A stretch of 36,650 bases of DNA from Bacteroidaceae bacterium (GTDB lineage Bacteria > Bacteroidota > Bacteroidia > Bacteroidales > Bacteroidaceae): the NCBI GenBank assembly GCA_017541265.1, contig JAFXZK010000031.1:1-36650 (forward strand), given 5' to 3'. Every line of letters begins with the position of its first letter. Position 1 is the first letter of the stretch. Of the stretch, positions 1,237-34,003 are shown piece by piece. The notes under the pieces were generated by a model. It made no database searches and was not told where the DNA came from. It was given only the letters and a program-made list of their open reading frames with translations. Both the position numbers and the translations under genes were made by a program.

Positions 1237-1855
1237 CTTTTACTCCTGCGTCGAAGGCTTTGAGGTTGGCTTCAACCACTTGTTCTCCCTTGCGGGCGAA
1301 CACGGTGGCGATGGCTTCGCGCAGGTTCTCTACAGAAAGGATGCCGATATAGGGGGCAGCCATGCCGAGCAACACCATGTTGGCACCTCTGGGATTGCCG
1401 CAGTCCTTGGCGACGGTATCGATGTCGAGCTTCACGCTTGGCAAGGTGTCGAGTTCCTGCTGCAAAGCTGCCTCATCGGGATAGTTGGGGATATTGACGA
1501 AGGGCTTCGAGCTGGTCACTATCTTGCCGTCCTTGCTGAGATAAGCCAAGTAGCGCATAGCCTCCATCGGCTCCATAGAGATAATGAGGTCTGCACCGGC
1601 TTCAGCGATGAGGTCGCTCCAAATGGGTTCAGTGGAGAGGCGCAGGTTCGACTGCACGTCGCCGCCTCGCTGACTCATACCATGTACCTCGGCTTGCTTC
1701 AGGTAAAGCCCAGCCTTTGTTGCTGCCTCGCCTATGATGGTTGCGATGGAGAGGATGCCTTGTCCGCCCACACCGCAAAGGATGATGTCAGACCCACCCC
1801 CTGACCCCTCCCTTGTAGGGAGGGGAGTTGATAGCTTTGATTGGTTGTTATTCAT
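1229..1855 (-). CDS. iorB: indolepyruvate:ferredoxin oxidoreductase, beta subunit
   Basis: Gamma-domain type subunit of the 2-oxoacid:ferredoxin oxidoreductase that converts indolepyruvate or phenylpyruvate with CoA to the aryl-acetyl-CoA, CO2 and reduced ferredoxin. The family signature DIILCGVGGQGILSIATIIG begins at residue 23 and is followed by the conserved QAEVHGMSQRGGDVQSNLR. The 208-residue product carries an unusual N-terminus: residues 1-22 (MNNNQSKLS, then TPLPTREGSGGGS) precede the domain, which in relatives starts almost at the initiator Met. Residues 10-22 are translated from the left arm of the 501-bp DUF559 cassette, and the start codon itself lies inside the cassette. The start overlaps the DUF559 stop in ATGA, so translation is probably coupled. 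No internal Met gives a better start, since the next Met lies well within the domain. paaK follows 40 bp downstream. Confidence 0.95.
   Translation of the reverse strand: MNNNQSKLSTPLPTREGSGGGSDIILCGVGGQGILSIATIIGEAATKAGLYLKQAEVHGMSQRGGDVQSNLRLSTEPIWSDLIAEAGADLIISMEPMEAMRYLAYLSKDGKIVTSSKPFVNIPNYPDEAALQQELDTLPSVKLDIDTVAKDCGNPRGANMVLLGMAAPYIGILSVENLREAIATVFARKGEQVVEANLKAFDAGVKAS
1790..1828 (-). repeat. left inverted arm of the DUF559 cassette
   Basis: The outer end begins AGACCC; the hairpin stem is CCCCTCCC (1805-1812), loop TTGTA, GGGAGGGG (1818-1825). Read on the minus strand it encodes IorB residues 10-22. It differs from the right arm at four positions, one of them in the hairpin loop, so the stem is intact in both arms. 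Confidence 0.9.
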
Positions 1856-2235
1856 CGTTCAAAGTATTCTGTTATCTTTCTTATTACATTATCAATATCG
1901 TAAAGTACCTCTTCGTTTGAGAAACGCATCACATGATACCCCATTCTTTGCAAGTTATATTCTCGGACAGCATCATCTTCCTGTTGTTGTGGTTCGGAAT
2001 GATACCCACCATCCACTTCTATAACAAGACCGCCATGTCGGGAAACGAAATCTACGATGTAATCACCTATTATGTGTTGTCTGAGGAAATCAACTCCTAA
2101 AGCCTTGGCTCGTAAATGTTCCCAGAGATATTGTTCTGCCAGCGTAGCATTCCTTCGATTCTTGCGGGCATACTCCCGTAGCACCATGTATCTGTCTGGC
2201 GAAGCGCACTTGTATGTGGCTTCTCGTTTTCCCAT
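1852..2235 (-). CDS. DUF559 family protein, PD-(D/E)XK-type endonuclease domain
   Basis: A small protein of 127 residues with the DUF559 (Vsr-like) fold. An N-terminal basic helix region (REYARKNRRNATLAEQYLWE) leads to FLRQHIIGDYIVDF, then VIEVDGGYH. Asp62, Glu73 and Asp75 form the D...ExD metal-binding pattern of PD-(D/E)XK nucleases, so the active site looks intact. I place the start at 2235 (MGKREA). A longer reading to 2331 would run through the right arm and the end of iorA and begins with repeat-encoded residues (PPPNPSLAGRG). The IorA stop is 14 bp upstream and the gene's own TGA overlaps the iorB start. No methyltransferase or specificity gene is nearby, so a classical restriction role is unlikely. 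Its place between inverted paired-hairpin arms suggests a role in the spread of that element; this is inference. Confidence 0.85.
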   Translation of the reverse strand: MGKREATYKCASPDRYMVLREYARKNRRNATLAEQYLWEHLRAKALGVDFLRQHIIGDYIVDFVSRHGGLVIEVDGGYHSEPQQQEDDAVREYNLQRMGYHVMRFSNEEVLYDIDNVIRKITEYFER

Positions 2236-2249
2236 CCCAGAAAAGGTAT

Positions 2250-3863
2250 CTACTCCCCTCCCTGCAAGGGAGGGGTTTGGGGGAGGGTCTTCTTCTTTTC
2301 CTTCGCGTGTCTTGCGAAGGTCTGGATGCATTCCCTGCGGGGGATGATGACAGAGACGCCATTGTACTCAATCTCTTCCTTGATGACGCGGGTTATCTCA
2401 GGCAGGTTCTTGGGCAAAGGCACAACGACACGTACATGCTCTGGCTCTACGCCAAGGCCGAGGCAGATGGCTTCGTACTTATTGGTGCCGGCAGAGTCTT
2501 GTCCGCCAGTCATTCCCGTTGTGAGGTTGTCAGAGATAACGACCGTGATGTTCGCTTTGTCGTTGACAGCGTCGAGCAAGCCTGTCATGCCGCTATGGGT
2601 GAAGGTCGAGTCGCCGATGATAGCCACGGCAGGGAAGAGTCCTGCATCGGCAGCGCCCTTTGCCATCGTGATGCTTGCGCCCATATCGACACAAGACGAA
2701 AGGCTCTGGAAGGGAGGCAAGGCACCAAGCGTATAGCAGCCGATGTCACCGAAGACGCGATGGTCGGGATAGTCGGCAAGGACTTGATTCAAGGCAGCAT
2801 AAACATCTCTGTGACCGCAGCCTTGGCATAGCTGGGGAGGACGTGCCGCCATATTCTTGGCAGGAGCAAAGACTGCACCAGTCGCTTTGCCTAATGCCTT
2901 TGCCACGCAGTCGGGTGTGAGTTCGCCTGTACGGGGCAGGTCGCCTGTCAAGCGTCCCTTCACGGGATAGCCTGCACCAAGCAAACCCTTGACGAGTTCC
3001 TCAACAACAGGCTGACCGTCCTCAATAACCATCAACTCATCACATTCAGCAGCCAAAGCCTTAATCTTCGCTTCGGGGAGAGGATATTGGGAAATCTTGA
3101 TAAGGTTGGCATCATTGCCAAGGGCTTCCTTCACATAGTTGTATGCGATACCGCAAGCCAAGATGCCTGTCTTCGCAGCAGCTTTCTCTACCTTATTATA
3201 TATGCTCTCTTCGGAAGCTTGCTTCATGGCTTCTTGCTTTTCGAGGAGCTTCACATACTTCTTCCTCGCAATGCCTGGCAGAAGCACCCACTGGTCGGTG
3301 GCAGGCGAAAGGGACTTCTCGGCCATTGGTTCTGTTACTTCCACAGCGGCACGAGAGTGAGCCAAACGTGTCACGACACGCAGCACGATGGGTTCGCCAA
3401 GTTTCTCCGAGAGGTCGAAGCCATAGGCCATCATGTCGTAGGCTTCCTGCTGATTAGAGGGTTCAAGGCAGGGAACGAGGGCGAACTTCGCATAGAAGCG
3501 CGAATCCTGCTCGTTCTGGGAGGAATGCATGGAGGGGTCATCGGCAGCGAGGACAATCAAGCCGCCCTTCACGCCAGTAATGGCACTGTTGACGAAAGCG
3601 TCGGCACAAACGTTCATGCCTACATGCTTCATGCACACCAAAGCCCTCTTGCCTGCATACGACATACCGAGGGCAGCTTCCATAGCCGTCTTCTCGTTGG
3701 TGCACCAACGGGAATGCATGCCGCGTTCCTTGGCAAGAGGATTGTTTTGAATGTATTCGGTGATTTCGGTGCTTGGCGTTCCTGGGTAAGCATACACGCC
3801 GCTCAGTCCGGCGTTGATGGCACCAAGGGCAATCGCCTCGTCACCTAAAAGGAGTTTCTTCAT
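2250..3863 (-). CDS. iorA: indolepyruvate:ferredoxin oxidoreductase, alpha subunit
   Basis: Thiamine-diphosphate-dependent catalytic subunit of the aryl-pyruvate:ferredoxin oxidoreductase, 537 residues. The pyrimidine-binding half begins LLGDEAIALGAINAGLSG with YPGTPSTEI. The CQGCGHRDVY motif and the thiamine-pyrophosphate region GDIGCYTLGALPPFQS, GDSTFTHSGMTGLLDAV and SDNLTTGMTGGQDSAGT follow in the C-terminal half. No CxxCxxC ferredoxin domain is visible at the C-terminus, so the protein is shorter than the archaeal form (about 620-650 residues) and resembles the Bacteroides form. The native protein seems to end near RRECIQTFARHAKEKKK; the last 12 residues and the TAG stop come from the arm of the inserted DUF559 cassette. 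Upstream is folE, separated by a 9-bp tandem repeat. The pair works with iorB and paaK. Confidence 0.95.
   Translation of the reverse strand: MKKLLLGDEAIALGAINAGLSGVYAYPGTPSTEITEYIQNNPLAKERGMHSRWCTNEKTAMEAALGMSYAGKRALVCMKHVGMNVCADAFVNSAITGVKGGLIVLAADDPSMHSSQNEQDSRFYAKFALVPCLEPSNQQEAYDMMAYGFDLSEKLGEPIVLRVVTRLAHSRAAVEVTEPMAEKSLSPATDQWVLLPGIARKKYVKLLEKQEAMKQASEESIYNKVEKAAAKTGILACGIAYNYVKEALGNDANLIKISQYPLPEAKIKALAAECDELMVIEDGQPVVEELVKGLLGAGYPVKGRLTGDLPRTGELTPDCVAKALGKATGAVFAPAKNMAARPPQLCQGCGHRDVYAALNQVLADYPDHRVFGDIGCYTLGALPPFQSLSSCVDMGASITMAKGAADAGLFPAVAIIGDSTFTHSGMTGLLDAVNDKANITVVISDNLTTGMTGGQDSAGTNKYEAICLGLGVEPEHVRVVVPLPKNLPEITRVIKEEIEYNGVSVIIPRRECIQTFARHAKEKKKTLPQTPPLQGGE
2252..2290 (+). repeat. 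right inverted arm of the DUF559 cassette
   Basis: Hairpin stem CCCCTCCC (2255-2262), loop TGCAA, GGGAGGGG (2268-2275), then a tail ending AGGGTCT. On the minus strand it encodes the last 12 residues of IorA (TLPQTPPLQGGE), and the iorA stop codon TAG (2250-2252) lies at its inner edge. Confidence 0.9.
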
Positions 3864-3871
3864 AGTTTATT

Positions 3872-3952
3872 ATCTGAGTATTCTGAATAATCTGAATAAT
3901 CCGAGTAATCTGAATAATCGGAGTAATCTGAATAATCGGAGGATTCTGAAAG
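3872..3952. repeat. nine tandem 9-bp units (ATCTGAATA type) between folE and iorA
   Basis: Nine consecutive 9-base units fill almost the entire folE-iorA gap: ATCTGAATA (three exact copies), ATCCGAGTA, ATCGGAGTA and close variants. Because the unit is a multiple of three, the minus-strand translation is a run of Ser-Asp-Tyr, but no start or domain makes it a gene. The variation between units suggests an old array, and copy number may differ between strains. Confidence 0.9.
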
Positions 3953-5064: not shown

Positions 5065-5084
5065 TTACAATTTAACAATTTGAG

Positions 5085-5162
5085 GACCCCTCTAAATCTC
5101 CCCTTAAAGGGGAGACTTTCTATCCGAGGTTCTCTCCCTTTAAGGGAGAGTTAGAGAGGGTC
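5085..5162. repeat. 78-bp paired-hairpin element between tpiA and the SPOR gene
   Basis: Two inverted arms. The left hairpin is TCTCCCC-TTAAA-GGGGAGA (5097-5115) and the right is CTCTCCC-TTTAA-GGGAGAG (5132-5150). The outer ends are GACCCC on the left and GGGTC on the right. The arrangement (outer tail, hairpin, short spacer, hairpin, outer tail) equals that of the DUF559 cassette without the gene. The loops of the two hairpins are reverse complements of each other, as expected of inverted copies. Confidence 0.85.
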
Positions 5163-5173
5163 TGTGTTTGTGT

Positions 5174-7066: not shown

Positions 7067-7164
7067 AAAGCCCCCTCCCCGCTCCCCCTTTTGGGGAGTG
7101 CTTTGGAGCGGCGAGGCCACGGGAATGTGGCACTCCCCCAAAGGGGGAGCGGGGAGGGGGCTTT
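7067..7164. repeat. 98-bp paired-hairpin element at the DUF1599/DoxX-like junction
   Basis: The left arm 7067-7101 and right arm 7130-7164 are inverted copies with 34 of 35 positions identical. Each arm reads AAAGCCCCCTCCCCGC outward-in, then a CTCCCC...GGGGAG hairpin. It begins at the stop codon of DUF1599 and ends three bases before the likely start of the DoxX-like gene, so it lies exactly between two genes of an operon. The near-perfect arms suggest it is the youngest element in the window. Confidence 0.9.
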
Positions 7165-7799: not shown

Positions 7800-7870
7800 G
7801 TTGCCGAGAAAAAAGTGAGATAATGCGTCTTTTGGCACTTTACATAGCATCGGGAGCTCCTGCGGGATCG

Positions 7871-7993
7871 GGCGGATTTGCAATCCGACCGTATCGAGTA
7901 TAAGCATTTGCAATGCGATAATCGAAGATGACAATTATACAGTTGCGGGATTACAAATCCCCATACTCGATACTGGCGGATTGCAAATCCGCC
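7871..7993. repeat. 123-bp palindromic element with GGCGGATTTGCAATCCG ends
   Basis: The left arm 7871-7901 and right arm 7963-7993 are inverted copies (29 of 31 identical), each a hairpin GGCGGATTTGCAATCCG followed by GTATCGAGTAT. Inside each arm is a second palindrome, GCATTTGCAATGC on the left and GGGATTACAAATCCC on the right. It is unrelated in sequence to the C-rich elements but has the same paired-inverted-hairpin logic. It lies in the long gene-free stretch 7743-8542. A degenerate single arm is at 18101-18122. Confidence 0.85.
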
Positions 7994-8057
7994 AGAACAC
8001 CCCAAGGTCGAAACTCGACAAATAGAAAGCAAAAACGCTATTTCTCTTTCTTCTTGA

Positions 8058-9823: not shown

Positions 9824-9919
9824 AGGTTATGAGGTTTTGAGGTTATAAGGTTTTAAGGCTATGAGGAAACTTCACCTCATAACCCGAAAGCGAAGCGACC
9901 TCATAACCTTATAACCTTA
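9823..9919. repeat. inverted arrays of GGTTATGAGG units between pyrI and glyA
   Basis: The left part (9824-9866) has GGTTATGAGG, GGTTATAAGG and GGCTATGAGG units. The right part (9874-9919) has CCTCATAACC twice and CTTATAACC units, so the two halves can fold on each other. The array overlaps the pyrI stop codon (TAA in GTATAAGG) and touches the glyA start. It is the same family as the tract at 1200-1236. The 93-bp intergenic gap contains little else. Confidence 0.85.
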
Positions 9920-10372
9920 TACAAGTTTTACATCTGTTAGATTGATTTCCCTGTTGCAATAGTGGCACTGGAGCGTGCCGCGTTCCTTGCCGAGGTAGTG
10001 GAAACGCGTCTGCATCGGTTCGTTGTTGGTGATGCACTTGTGGTTGTCGCAGCGCACGATGCCGATGAGTTCCTCGGGCATCTTGACTTCCTTCTTCTCC
10101 ACCACCTCGTAGTCGCGGATGACGCTCAGCGTGACGTTTGGCGCCACGACGGAAAGCTGGTTGACTTCGTCGTCGGAGAAGAACCTTTCGGCAACCTTGA
10201 TGATGCTCTTGCCTCCCATCTTCTTGCTCTTGAGGTTGTAGCCGATGGTGACGGCTGAACGCTCCTCTTCGAGGTGAAGCAGGCTGATGACCTGGAAGAG
10301 CTTGGCGGAAGGTATGTGGTCGATGACTGTGCCGTTCTGAAGGGCAGCCACCTGAAGTTCCTGGCGTTTCAT
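9917..10372 (-). CDS. pyrI: aspartate carbamoyltransferase regulatory chain
   Basis: Regulatory subunit that binds nucleotide effectors and, through a zinc site, the catalytic PyrB trimers. 151 residues from [20 protein letters not shown]. The N-terminal allosteric domain includes [14 protein letters not shown] and [20 protein letters not shown]. The C-terminal zinc domain has CDNHKC and CHYC, the four cysteines in the expected Cx4C...CxxC pattern. A reading from 10405 would add 11 residues without support, so I use 10372. It follows pyrB by 42 bp. Confidence 0.96.
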
Positions 10373-15960: not shown

Positions 15961-16800
15961 TTAACTTTTTAATGTTTCACTTTTTCTCTGTCTGACAGCC
16001 TCGAAGAGCAGGATGGCAGCGCTCACCGAGACGTTGAGAGAGTCGAGGCGGCCAAACATGGGGATGCGGATGTGCGCGTCGGCTGCCTCACGCCATTGGT
16101 CGGTCAAGCCCGTTGCCTCCGTGCCCATCACGATGGCGGTGGGGCCGGTCATCGGGGTGTCGTAGTAGGGTTTCGAGTCCTGCAGTTGCGCTGTAAGTAT
16201 CCGAATGCCTCTTTCCTTGAAGAAGGCGATGCACTCTTCTGTGGTGCAAGCCACGCAGGGAACGGTGAAGAGTGCCCCTATGGAAGAGCGGATGAGGTTG
16301 GGGTTGTATAGGTCGGTCAGCGGGTCGCAGACCACGACGGCATCCGCTCCTGCGGCATCCGCGCTGCGCAGCACTGCGCCGAGGTTGCCTGGCTTCTCCA
16401 CGCTCTCCAATACCACGATGAGCGGCGAAGCTGAGAGTTGCAAGTCGCTCAGTTGCGTCCTGCGTGCCTCCACGACAGCCACAATGCCCTCCGTTCCGCC
16501 ACGATAGGCGATGCGCTCATAGACGTTGCGGCTGACGGGAATAATCTCGACGATCGACCCCCACCCAACCTCCCCGAGGGGAGGCTTCCTGCCGTCCATC
16601 TTCCCTCCCCTCGGGAAGGTTGGGAGGGGGCTTATCTCCTCGCATACGAACGCCGTACGGATAGTATAGCCTGCCGAGAGGCAATGCTCCACTTCGCGCC
16701 GCCCCTCCACGACGAACAAGCCGTCAGCTTTTCTCTGTGCCGACTTCTGCTCGAGCAGCAGCAAGTGCTTGATGCGCGGATTCTGCGTGCTGGTAATCAT
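15961..16800 (-). CDS. SpoU/TrmH-family RNA 2'-O-methyltransferase with an in-frame palindromic insertion
   Basis: 279 residues. The N-terminal substrate-binding domain (TSTQNPRIKHLLLLEQKSAQR, GLFVVEGRREVEHCL) and the C-terminal SPOUT knot are clear: VLESVEKPGNLGAVLRSADA, AIVMGTEATGLTDQW and IPMFGRLDSLNVSVSAAILL, the three SpoU motifs with the trefoil-knot S-adenosylmethionine site. It is of the RlmB/TrmH-like type that modifies rRNA or tRNA; which one is not decidable here. Residues 57-82 (SPLPTFPRGG ... GEVGWGS) are the translation of a 78-bp paired-hairpin element that adds 26 residues without breaking the frame, in the linker between the two domains. The C-terminus SETLKS comes from the 17-bp repeat shared with pyrB. 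The start overlaps the stop of the serine hydrolase gene by four bases. Confidence 0.92.
   Translation of the reverse strand: MITSTQNPRIKHLLLLEQKSAQRKADGLFVVEGRREVEHCLSAGYTIRTAFVCEEISPLPTFPRGGKMDGRKPPLGEVGWGSIVEIIPVSRNVYERIAYRGGTEGIVAVVEARRTQLSDLQLSASPLIVVLESVEKPGNLGAVLRSADAAGADAVVVCDPLTDLYNPNLIRSSIGALFTVPCVACTTEECIAFFKERGIRILTAQLQDSKPYYDTPMTGPTAIVMGTEATGLTDQWREAADAHIRIPMFGRLDSLNVSVSAAILLFEAVRQRKSETLKS
15963..15979. repeat. 17-bp dispersed repeat encoding the RNA methyltransferase C-terminus
   Basis: AACTTTTTAATGTTTCA, identical to 10417-10433. It encodes (S)ETLKS and overlaps the first base of the reversed stop codon. Confidence 0.85.
16555..16632. repeat. 78-bp paired-hairpin element inside the RNA methyltransferase gene
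   Basis: The left arm begins GACCCCCACCCAACC and the right arm reads, reversed, AGCCCCCTCCCAACC. Inner hairpins are CCTCCCC/GGGGAGG on the left and CTTCCC (16600-16605) with GGGAAG (16613-16618) on the right. The insertion length is a multiple of three and the element has no stop codon in the frame used. The exact ends are uncertain by a few bases. Confidence 0.8.
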
Positions 16801-31632: not shown

Positions 31633-33072
31633 ATGAAAAGACTTTTCCCTCTCGTACTGCTGCTCCTTCTGCCTGCCTTTTGTCTGGCCCAGACTTCCGA
31701 GAGTATGCTGAAGAAGTACTCTGCCTTGGGGCTGCCGGTGATATGCATTACGACTGTTAATGGCGAAGAACCGACATCAACAAATGTCCGTCACCCAGAA
31801 GGTTCATACGTCGGTGCAAGCATCACAAATGTCGTACCCAAAGAGGGACGGATACAAATCTACCGCGCCGACACGCTTTGGTACGACAGCGGGGAATACC
31901 AGAAAGATGTGTCAGGGATGAAAATCAAGCACAGAGGCAACACCTCGGCTTATAGCTATAAGAACAAACCATTCAAGGTAACACTCCAGAAGAAGGCCGA
32001 CTTGATACCGAAAGAGGAAGGCGACGAAACAGACAGAAGGAGCAAGGACTGGGTACTGCTCAACTGCTCTTTCTCCATAAGAAGCCATTTCATCCACCAA
32101 ATGGGAAAGATGATTGGAATGGAATATGCTCCAAGGGTGGAATACGTCAATGTCATCTTCAACAACAACTACCGAGGCGTTTACATCCTCTCGGAGAACA
32201 TCACCCGCGACAAGACATGCCGTATTGATGTTGACATGGATGAAGGCTACATCATAGAACTGAATGCCTACTTCTGGAACGAACCTCTCTACATTCGGTC
32301 CAAGTATATTAATTTTATGGCTTGGACATTCAAATATCCCAAACCTGAGGACATCTTTGATGAGCAAAAAGAAGACATAAAGAGCGACATTGAACGGTTT
32401 GAAGACGCCATCGTGAACGATTATTACCCGGAAGTGATAGACGTGCGCTCATTTGCCCGCTGGATTTTGCTGCACGACCTCCTGGGCACATACGATGGTG
32501 CAGGTTCCAACATCTATGTCGCGCGAAAGAACAGGGATGCCTCCTCGCTGATGCGAATGCCAGCAGGATGGGACATGGATTCCTCCATGAAATACCCCGA
32601 CCAATGGTCCAGGACACATAGAGAAAGCGGTATCTTCTTCTCAAAGCTGTTTGCCAATCAGAAATGTACGGACTTCATTGAAACATACATAGACGAATAT
32701 CATCGCGCCATGCAATTAGACGTGATGGAGCGGATGAGGCAGCTTGCTCTGTCCTTCCCCTCTTCAGCTCTGGGGCAGGGACTGATACGCTCCTACCCTC
32801 ATCACGGCCAGCGCTGGGGATGGAGTTCCAGCATCTACGAGAGCGTCGATATAGAGGCGCAGTCCCAATTCGTCTATGACTTTTTCGTGGAGAGGGAGCC
32901 GGGCTTGGCAAGCCTCGTCTCGGGACTCGCCGACGGCTTGACAGAAATTAAGGCGGACGAGCACACGGACGCGCGGAAAGTCATCCGCGATGGGCACCTC
33001 TACATCATCAAGGACGACAAGACCTATTCCGTCGACGGGTTCACTTTATCAGAACCTTCTTGCCGCCGATGA
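31633..33072 (+). CDS. secreted CotH-like protein (CotH kinase fold)
   Basis: 479 residues, signal peptide MKRLFPLVLLLLLPAFCLAQ. The CotH signature runs IKHRGNTSAYSYKNKPFKVT, WVLLNCSFSIRSHFIHQMGK, RVEYVNVIFNNNYRGVYILS, DEGYIIELN and the metal-binding region MPAGWDMDSSMKY. CotH proteins are atypical kinases that phosphorylate secreted proteins in Bacillus spores and fungi; in Bacteroidetes their targets are unknown. It follows the glycosyltransferases by 76 bp and may belong to the same unit. Its last 32 bases overlap the 3' end of the convergent SusF-like gene. An upstream Met (31432) lies inside the previous gene. Confidence 0.85.
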   Translation: MKRLFPLVLLLLLPAFCLAQTSESMLKKYSALGLPVICITTVNGEEPTSTNVRHPEGSYVGASITNVVPKEGRIQIYRADTLWYDSGEYQKDVSGMKIKHRGNTSAYSYKNKPFKVTLQKKADLIPKEEGDETDRRSKDWVLLNCSFSIRSHFIHQMGKMIGMEYAPRVEYVNVIFNNNYRGVYILSENITRDKTCRIDVDMDEGYIIELNAYFWNEPLYIRSKYINFMAWTFKYPKPEDIFDEQKEDIKSDIERFEDAIVNDYYPEVIDVRSFARWILLHDLLGTYDGAGSNIYVARKNRDASSLMRMPAGWDMDSSMKYPDQWSRTHRESGIFFSKLFANQKCTDFIETYIDEYHRAMQLDVMERMRQLALSFPSSALGQGLIRSYPHHGQRWGWSSSIYESVDIEAQSQFVYDFFVEREPGLASLVSGLADGLTEIKADEHTDARKVIRDGHLYIIKDDKTYSVDGFTLSEPSCRR

Positions 33073-34003
33073 TGTTCAGACCGCGCTGGGGCTTGCTCAA
33101 GCGCTGACCGGAAAGGTTATAAGCCTCCCCCATCCCCTCCTGAAGGAGGGGTGAATCAAAGTCCTTCCCTTCAGGGGAGGATTTAGGAGAGGCAATTCCG
33201 TCCGGCAGCTCCGTGCCAAGATATTCAGCTTCGATGGTTTCCTCGAAGACGTTAATCTTGATGTGGTAGTAGCCGTCCTTGCTGATAGCCCATTTGTAGT
33301 CCTCCGAGCCGTTGTACCATATCTGTTTGGCTGTCAGGATGGAGGCATCTTGCGTAAAGGGATGCAGCACCTTCGGACTCCATCCGTACTGCCCGTTTAT
33401 CTTGAAGCGTTTGGGTTCCAAGTTATAGGAATAAGCCTTCAGCAACCCTGTCCATTCGAAGACATTTGGGTCGTCCCAGTTTTGCTCCATCTGCTTGCCT
33501 GCCGTTATTTGCCAATGGCCTTCCTGACCTGAAATGTTTTCCCCTTGCCTGTCTTCTACGCAGCCGCCGCATATCCAAGCCTCGTACCAGCGAGTGAAGA
33601 GTTCGCCCGTTACCTGCTTGTTCGTGACATCGACGGTGAAGCGATAGTTGTCTGCCTCGAAGAGGACAGCCCATTCAGCACCGGTGCTGTCGGATTTCAG
33701 AACATAGTCTGCCTTATCCGTGACGATATTGGTGTCTACGAGTTTTGGCGCATAATAACGGGAAGAGGACCTCGGCGTGTTGGTCGTGGTGACATAGAGG
33801 TCGCCCGGGAGCAGTTTGCCGTGGAACTTAAAGGTATAGCGGCCACTCACATTCGTCGAGAACTTTGTCAATTCCTGTACGCCACCCGGTACGGCAGAGC
33901 CACGCACGTAAAGCCGCGTCTGGGCCATTAAAGGGTGAAAAGGTGAAAAGGTGAAAAGGTAAAACACCAAAAGATAATATAATAATGTAGGATTTAGTTT
34001 CAT
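33041..34003 (-). CDS. SusF/SusE-like secreted glycan-binding protein with an in-frame palindromic insertion
   Basis: 320 residues. The signal peptide MKLNPTLLYYLLVFYLFTFS is followed by PFHPLMAQ, its hydrophobic core encoded by a CTTTTCAC repeat. Two beta-sandwich units follow: residues about 28-140 (LYVRGSAVPGGVQELTKFS) and about 145-265 (WICGGCVEDRQG, QNWDDPNVFEWTGLLKAYSY, RFKINGQYGWSPK), the second resembling SusE/SusF starch-binding domains. Residues about 271-294 (SPKSSPEGKDF, SPLLQEGMGE) are a translated paired-hairpin element. The C-terminus AYNLSGQRLSKPQRGLNIIG, then GKKVLIK, resembles the short C-terminal tail seen on many Prevotella secreted proteins. Its partner upstream is the GH31 enzyme, so alpha-glucan binding is likely. 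Confidence 0.75.
   Translation of the reverse strand: MKLNPTLLYYLLVFYLFTFSPFHPLMAQTRLYVRGSAVPGGVQELTKFSTNVSGRYTFKFHGKLLPGDLYVTTTNTPRSSSRYYAPKLVDTNIVTDKADYVLKSDSTGAEWAVLFEADNYRFTVDVTNKQVTGELFTRWYEAWICGGCVEDRQGENISGQEGHWQITAGKQMEQNWDDPNVFEWTGLLKAYSYNLEPKRFKINGQYGWSPKVLHPFTQDASILTAKQIWYNGSEDYKWAISKDGYYHIKINVFEETIEAEYLGTELPDGIASPKSSPEGKDFDSPLLQEGMGEAYNLSGQRLSKPQRGLNIIGGKKVLIK
33123..33193. repeat. 71-bp paired-hairpin element inside the SusF-like gene
   Basis: The left hairpin is CCCCTCC-TGAA-GGAGGGG (33134-33151), the right CCTTCCC-TTCA-GGGGAGG (33163-33180). The loops are reverse complements of each other. Outer ends GCCTCC and GGAGAGGC. It adds about 24 residues in frame just before the C-terminal tail of the protein. 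Ends are uncertain by a few bases. Confidence 0.8.
33929..33963. repeat. GGTGAAAA tandem units inside the SusF-like signal peptide
   Basis: Four copies of an 8-base unit (GGTGAAAA, the last GGTAAAAC). On the minus strand they encode LFTFSPFHPL, the hydrophobic part of the signal peptide. Confidence 0.85.

Follow-up and report, generated by a model that had tools for sequence, protein, structure and literature searches.

A 501 bp element between iorA and iorB (positions 1790..2290, coding strand minus) in the window, the 36,650-nucleotide stretch of DNA that was analysed, is probably, on the evidence of its sequence, a small homing-like mobile element in which inverted G/C-rich hairpin arms enclose one gene, encoding a single-domain nuclease of Vsr/EDxHD type (DUF559). 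Elements of this type are discrete insertions, located at gene junctions or in frame within conserved genes. At one site the element is present in some genomes and missing from close relatives, and related nucleases are found at the same kinds of site. We read the element as non-splicing and homing-like, with arms that double as stop-free Pro/Gly linkers. A broader proposal, on which belief and doubt are nearly balanced with doubt slightly ahead, is that it may belong to a new class of selfish element that is widespread in prokaryotes. Here, a homing-type nuclease would be carried as a tolerated extra domain in other, even essential, proteins, splicing being unneeded since the terminal DNA hairpins encode flexible Pro/Gly linkers, and many G/C-rich palindromic repeats of these genomes would derive from it, as ends or as gene-less descendants.

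The arms, located on the iorB side at 1790..1828 (plus strand) and on the iorA side at 2252..2290 (minus strand), share 35/39 positions in inverted orientation. Each consists of a tail starting with AGACCC (AGACCCACCCCCTGA and AGACCCTCCCCCAAA, respectively) followed by a hairpin (DNA fold -10.5 kcal/mol). The first-pass annotation had described 39 bp inverted hairpin ends around one DUF559 gene, and this description holds except for the stem, given there as 8 bp and found by folding to be 9 bp with a 3-nt loop. Over 58 nt the inverted similarity is still 83%, and the arms are the best inverted pair at this spacing, scoring 34.0 against 13.5 for the runner-up over 143 window positions tested. 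The single gene between them predicts a DUF559 protein (PF04480, E 1.6e-32), with the domain match at 1864..2181 (minus), and the 159-aa ORF includes only nuclease-type Pfam domains. The coding sequence is placed at 1852..2235 (minus) from the first ATG within the element, a predicted start codon; the frame stays open upstream as far as 2331.

On either side of the cassette are a 537-aa open frame with TPP_enzyme_C/POR_N domains and another with a POR domain, and these domains fit the gene names iorA and iorB, which are those of the first-pass annotation. The iorA stop is now within one arm and the iorB start within the element. Compared with relatives, iorA has a C-terminal extension into the arm (2250..2290, minus) ending in TLPQTPPLQGGE and a stop codon, and iorB has the N-terminal extension MNNNQSKLSTPLPTREGSGGGS (1790..1855, minus), the start in relatives being ATGAAGAAAGACATC. 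The iorB ATG (1855-1853) overlaps the DUF559 TGA (1854-1852) as ATGA. A search of the iorA-iorB junctions of relatives for empty sites bore out the view that the cassette is an insertion, as close relatives G005, G008, G012 and G013 have a short junction that lacks the element. Approximately 19 bp of that junction is replaced in the window, as judged by eye.

Inverted arms were detected at 48/58 DUF559 loci of related genomes (58 of 69 match rows, the remaining 11 being short fragments) versus 1/168 control windows, and at 55 of 79 cross-phylum loci, examined from the best 80 of 527 and biased towards the query, versus 1/235, the controls in both cases being windows within the same loci and not a neutral gene family. 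The comparison of hairpins around DUF559 genes with background, suggested with the first-pass annotation, came out in its favour. Neither of two outcomes named beforehand as telling against that annotation, DUF559 genes elsewhere without hairpins or relatives without an empty site, was seen: DUF559 loci are mostly armed and relatives with empty sites exist. Strong arms are absent at 10/58 related-genome and 24/79 cross-phylum loci. In the plasmid collection, 2 of 6 DUF559 loci score at least 15, and the E. coli locus has no arms. The excess of hairpins rises with DUF559 count (rho 0.65 in 61 genomes, uncorrected for relatedness); hairpins are many in three DUF559-free draft genomes and few in nine genomes with DUF559.

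Arm and nuclease sequences co-vary over 48 copies picked by arm score from the related-genome set (rho 0.346, 0/2000 permutations). The co-variation is also found in 32 copies without shared sites (rho 0.386, 1/2000 permutations); restricted to the genus (27 copies) it is weak, with rho 0.19 and 14/2000 permutations. The two arms of one copy give 0.196 versus 0.54 between copies, a likeness that is partly built in because copies were chosen by arm score. From the arm-protein co-variation, our guess is that the nuclease may also recognise its own hairpins. Clades linked to site are L003, L029 and L006, supported at 1.0, and a type I R-M clade of 10 tips, supported at 0.952. Plasmid or phage cargo was rejected, the L162 protein having matches in 37 plasmid records out of 72,556 (E<=1e-12) and in 2 phage records out of 50,697 (E<=1e-8). 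A defence label was also rejected, since the PADLOC matches are weak, the best being that of L005 to DpdF at 1.9e-8; the window protein matches a homing endonuclease model in PADLOC at 1.6e-5.

Among arm-bearing copies, 20/52 from the cross-phylum set (best 80 of 527 loci) and 4/45 from related genomes are read through in frame by the host gene on the sense strand, the survey having taken 52 of 55 and 45 of 48 armed loci with domain ends approximate for most of the 52. The arms of in-frame copies translate as stop-free Pro/Gly-rich stretches, and the host gene therefore stays translatable. The absence of antisense cases is partly as expected from operons and the survival of harmless insertions. 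Sites are shared by 4 copies in HsdM, 3 in HsdR, 2 in LeuRS and 2 in the epimerase, and hence the in-frame copies are not independent. The interrupted LeuRS is the only LeuRS match in two 99%-complete genomes, and the interrupted MetRS is the only strong MetRS match in its genome. Other in-frame hosts are class I/II aminotransferase, DegT, Hydantoinase_B and epimerase genes. The first-pass annotation foresaw neither in-frame residence nor arms that could serve as linkers. A draft-assembly artefact was rejected, as records without MAG in the title, among them Geothermobacter L162 and Phormidium L159 and L229, also carry in-frame copies.

R-M or DNA-methylase proteins make up 15/20 cross-phylum in-frame hosts, including a DUF1156 protein that we take to belong with them. 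This proportion, together with dN/dS of 0.107 and 0.164 in 2 of 12 shared-site pairs (2 had stops and 8 were not computable), would suit a nuclease for repair or defence, Vsr-like or accessory to R-M, retained in host proteins for the benefit of the host. However, this explanation is improbable, given that the hosts include LeuRS, MetRS and the other proteins listed above, that most epimerase copies have no insert (see below), and that it leaves the matching arms and gene-less pairs unexplained.

The epimerase was sought in 139 genomes of the genus and found in 45 (47 rows), and 34 of these rows plus the G029 locus were compared, 13 rows being left out. In the gene tree 5/35 tips are filled, 29/35 are insert-free and one has a scar only. 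Filled alleles are scattered over the tree, with the insertion at the same codon in 4/5, and the filled/empty state requires 4 parsimony changes versus a shuffled mean of 4.8; losses could be part of this scatter. The filled G024 allele pairs with the empty G012 allele (support 1.0). Over 675 bp the G024 gene is 93.0% identical to empty G012 and 83.6% to filled G000, and over the last 150 bp, beside the insert, 98.7% and 86.7%, respectively. In the first ∼15 bp right of the insert, four G024 bases are unlike G012 and the outgroup G035, and three match G000, but empty alleles from other genomes commonly have the three bases behind this supposed donor tract as well. At a moxR-DUF58-type junction (gene names read from sequence), the eight genomes include 2 with a short junction that lacks the element (G012 and G024), 2 with a longer spacer and no element, 2 with a filled junction and 2 in which it was unreadable.

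Many sites are common to species with both host flanks alike, and stops or frame breaks are found in L017, L047, L056 and L006, as would be expected if the insertions were old and today travelled only as part of whole genes, by ordinary horizontal transfer and recombination. We consider this very unlikely, because the insert is present in G024 and not in G012 despite 93-98.7% identity of the surrounding gene, and because three copies within G049 share 90-94% identity across the domain, their arms being weak (scores 12.5, 15.0 and 9.5). For the homing-like element, site-specific cleavage of empty alleles is predicted, and the occurrence of both filled and empty alleles at a single codon lends this indirect support.

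Gene-less inverted hairpin pairs are also present in the window, and their proposed kinship with the element is supported, as they have the same arm types that DUF559 copies carry. The pair at 5084..5163 (no strand assigned) has arms that best match L054/L055 from other genomes of the genus, and the arms of the pair at 7067..7164 (no strand assigned) resemble those of L004, a DUF559 copy in this genome, and also those of L048. A pair at 16558..16630 (minus) is in frame inside a 286-aa open frame and matches known DUF559 arms weakly (best 22.5, L047). Another at 33118..33196 (minus), read in frame close to the C-terminal end of ORF 33041-34003 (ASPKSSPEGKDFDSPLLQEGMGEA), has one arm that resembles L003, the epimerase element of this genome. 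Gene-less pairs are no commoner in open frames than random intervals (1101/1500), in tests with detectors that gave 4 and 6 pairs and missed some.

A 339-kb sample of G000 contains 8 gene-less pairs versus 3 DUF559 copies. This ratio and the many hairpins of the three DUF559-free genomes are consistent with a REPIN/MITE-like element that has the arms as its ends and is mobilised by a RAYT or some unknown factor, DUF559 having been captured between the arms. Y1/RAYT-type genes of the same genomes likewise have inverted hairpins at 15/27 usable loci (30 loci in all). A Legionella segment that has a transposase is reported to include DUF559, and DUF559 segments are described as mutation and recombination hotspots, in the part of the report consulted (PMC12308824). 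Such a passenger role is nevertheless unlikely. The hairpins at Y1 loci differ in sequence from DUF559 arms by eye, G016 and G031 lack any Y1 match while giving 5 and 3 matches to DUF559, respectively, and the gene between such arms is DUF559 in many phyla, with all five catalytic-type residues kept in 46/47 full arm-bearing copies. A RAYT as mover was rejected on the by-eye difference in hairpins (27/30 loci usable).

In the homing-like reading, the nuclease would cut empty alleles and, rarely, other sites, and repair of the break would copy the element in and trim the target; gene-less arm pairs would be non-autonomous derivatives or remnants. Homing itself leaves new sites and gene-less pairs unexplained. 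If the proposal is correct, homing-type nucleases have another harmless way of life beside introns, inteins and intergenic residence, being in frame and unspliced with built-in linkers. It would also supply an origin for one group of palindromic repeats and mean that enzymes such as LeuRS gain a domain from mobile DNA. The proposal predicts that the nuclease cuts the empty epimerase or hsdM site and that the fused LeuRS is active. No description of DUF559 as a mobile element with hairpin arms was found in openly licensed PubMed Central papers.

Among known systems, classical IS elements and MITEs differ in two respects, as the window gene matches no transposase family and the target is replaced over ∼15-30 bp with no obvious duplication (by eye, three sites). 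Like inteins, the nuclease is in frame within conserved proteins and fills the same site in scattered lineages, but the element ends encode Pro/Gly-rich stretches, not splicing domains, and an intein was rejected because a scan of 23 open frames gave no match to an intein family at E<=1e-4. A group I/II intron was also rejected, as 11 loci searched against Rfam up to E 1 gave 4 matches, all to miRNA families below the gathering score. Rickettsia palindromic elements and CGTC REPs are in-frame palindromic inserts, the latter said to have no dedicated transposase, in the sections of PMC10969869 and PMC3733652 consulted. Some gene-less pairs of the window are likewise palindromic and in frame, as random intervals also often are (1101/1500 in open frames). 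The Rickettsia elements are ∼150 bp, with a nuclease gene unmentioned in the section of PMC10969869 consulted, whereas the DUF559 element carries one, a comparison by description and not by sequence.

A REPtron or RAYT-REPIN system shares with the element a small enzyme gene between inverted hairpins and gene-less inverted pairs in the same genome, but here the enzyme is DUF559 and not an HUH/Y1 transposase, the window element gene having no Y1 match, and no GTAG tag was noticed. The first-pass annotation had cast the nuclease in the part of the RAYT. The insertion, the arms around DUF559, gene-less pairs with the same arm types and arm-nuclease co-variation agree with that casting; RAYT-like working does not follow, as the hairpins at Y1 loci differ and the kin of the nuclease are homing endonucleases. 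One of these is I-Bth0305I (PDB 3r3p), with a profile match at E 2.7e-7. The homologous catalytic domain with conserved acidic residues fits the EDxHD group, with the D of the DF motif reading A in the 3r3p alignment and the H not conserved. I-Bth0305I is presented as a representative intron-type homing enzyme with long DNA-binding regions and long target sites in the part of PMC3943268 consulted; no extra DNA-binding regions of that kind were found in the 159-aa ORF (Pfam) or a 133-aa model. The element nuclease thus differs in being single-domain, with no intron found, and in having hairpin arms and in-frame residence, but the two share a homologous domain, a conserved site with both filled and empty alleles, and related enzymes at related sites.

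The DUF559 element at positions 1790-2290 of the window lies between iorA and iorB with its gene on the minus strand, and the first-pass annotation's account of a single DUF559 gene enclosed by inverted 39-bp arms, identical at 35 of 39 positions, was borne out. Each arm consists of a tail starting AGACCC and a hairpin, as described there, but the stem is 9 bp rather than 8 bp. The inverted-arm score is 34.0 at the element, compared with 13.5 for the runner-up (143 window positions at this spacing). A search for empty sites in relatives, proposed in the same annotation, found short junctions in G005, G008, G013 and G012, where the end of iorA is followed by a few bases and a ATGAAGAAAGACATC-type ATG start. 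The iorA gene of G005 is 95% identical to that of the window. Relative to G005, the window is missing ~19 bp that include the iorA stop and iorB start; both are provided by the element, where iorB now starts within an ATGA that also contains the DUF559 stop. At this junction, G020 (L064) holds a different insert, several hundred bases long, with runs like CATTTTAACATTTTAACACTTTAA.

All 4 DUF559 matches in the draft genome containing the window (G000) have inverted arms, with a different arm sequence in each. A DUF559 match is present in 31 of 61 related genomes, and hairpins were found to flank these genes more often than control windows from the same loci, with 48 of 58 loci scoring 15 or more (counted as armed) versus 1 of 168 controls. 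In a cross-phylum scan, 55 of 79 loci were armed versus 1 of 235 controls, the 79 being drawn from the best 80 of 527 and biased towards the query. By record title, armed loci include Bacteroidota, Cyanobacteria, Proteobacteria, Chloroflexi, Zixibacteria, Armatimonadetes and Patescibacteria/Gracilibacteria, and one Methanophagales archaeon (L182, score 17). A Gracilibacteria record (L201) has 2 stop codons within the DUF559 stretch under table 11, which the TGA=Gly code of this group may account for.

Strict arms number 57 in the 339 kb sampled from G000 (3 and 0 after two block shuffles), with 8 tails-out pairs and no tails-in pairs. Gene-less pairs had been proposed as relatives of the DUF559 elements, and arm likeness agrees, as 4 of 11 match the arms of a DUF559 copy in the same genome (score 28 or more). 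The pairs at 7067-7164 and in L117 (11969) match copy L004, and those at 33118-33196 and in L123 (2283) match L003, the copy in an epimerase gene. Most other compared pairs resemble arms of other genomes. Of the gene-less pairs detected, 3 of 4 in one set and 3 of 6 in another are in frame within an open frame, which is not above the rate for random intervals (1101 of 1500). Hairpin excess follows DUF559 count (rho 0.65 over 61 genomes, 0.60 in the genus only), with exceptions both ways, and G049 holds three DUF559 copies, 90-94% identical over the domain, amid like repeats.

The inverted pair at 7868-7996, with CGGATTTGCAATCCGCC, is similar to arms at a weak Y1 match (L147) and is probably a separate REP system. 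Y1/RAYT-type genes of the genus (L137 on C49 of G000, L139, L142) have inverted arms with hairpins of type GCCCAGGGCATCGCCCTGGG. Intergenic short-period repeats at 1201-1240, 3866-3950 and 9840-9921 (AGGTTATGAGGTTGTAAGG; AATCTGAATAATCGGAGT) may be another repeat family of the genus.

Among 45 related-genome loci, 27 are flanked on both sides by open frames co-directional with the nuclease gene and 8 are of type '-+'; the downstream frame starts within the element in 35. In four, which represent two sites (LeuRS and epimerase), the host frame continues through the element. In the cross-phylum set of 52 loci, for most of which domain ends are approximate, a host frame continues through 20 in frame and in the sense direction. 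Neither flank of another 16 carries a long open frame; 4 are of type '++', and the remainder are mixed. Antisense read-through, or both sides antisense, occurred at none of the 45 and 52 loci. Pfam places the LeuRS insert just ahead of the editing-domain match, which begins at profile position 20-22, and finds MetRS, class I/II aminotransferase (BioF in our reading), DegT, Hydantoinase_B and HsdM each split into two stretches. Further hosts are HsdR, HsdS, Eco57I/MmeI-type and other methylase proteins; no Pfam family was found for the host at L174. Restriction-modification (R-M) or methylase proteins make up 15 of the 20 cross-phylum in-frame hosts, including DUF1156, which we take to be of this type. 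By eye, the arms of in-frame copies encode Pro/Gly-rich stretches.

The interrupted LeuRS gene is the single match to the C-terminal half of LeuRS in both G055 and G038 (each 99% complete), and the interrupted gene at L230 is the sole strong MetRS-family match in its genome, the remaining rows being its second half and weaker relatives. Because LeuRS and MetRS are essential, these fusions are very probably functional.

G000, G024, G077 and G127 carry the epimerase element after an identical codon (HAP(E)|), with, by eye, ~27-30 bp of target replaced; G029 is also filled, with its left frame broken. The site is empty in 29 of 35 copies looked at in the genus. G150 (L265) has neither the loop nor the element of the other copies but PIPSEEGLGEA, an arm-like scar of 11 residues; loss of the gene is possible there. 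On the epimerase tree, placing the 5 filled tips takes 4 changes (mean 4.8 for shuffled labels); they are thus scattered about as expected by chance. Filled G024 groups with empty G012 as its sister (support 1.0); the two share 93.0% identity over 675 bp, and 98.7% in the 150 bp immediately left of the insert. G024 and filled G000 share 83.6% and 86.7% over these stretches. Within the first ~15 bp right of the insert, G024 departs from G012 and the outgroup G035 at four bases; three match G000, yet are also common in other empty alleles, making this a thin sign of gene conversion.

On the protein tree, the three sampled epimerase nucleases group together as a clade (support 1.0; the G077 and G127 copies lie outside the sample). 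A 10-tip clade (0.952) sits in type I R-M genes, 8 tips being assigned by Pfam, and L175 and L222 by similarity (86% to L182 and 48% to L162). Of the 47 full arm-bearing copies, 46 have a complete set of five catalytic-type residues; dN/dS is 0.107 and 0.164 in the two shared-site pairs that could be computed, and the AlphaFold model (mean pLDDT 83.3) mixes helices and strands. Alongside the observed anatomy, arm association, empty sites, in-frame residence and re-occupied or lost sites, we lean towards a homing-like element whose hairpin arms double as linkers; the nuclease would cut, the element would be copied, and gene-less pairs would presumably originate from such elements. Profile searches matched the nuclease to PDB 3hrl (E 1.3e-32) and to 3r3p, I-Bth0305I (E 2.7e-7).
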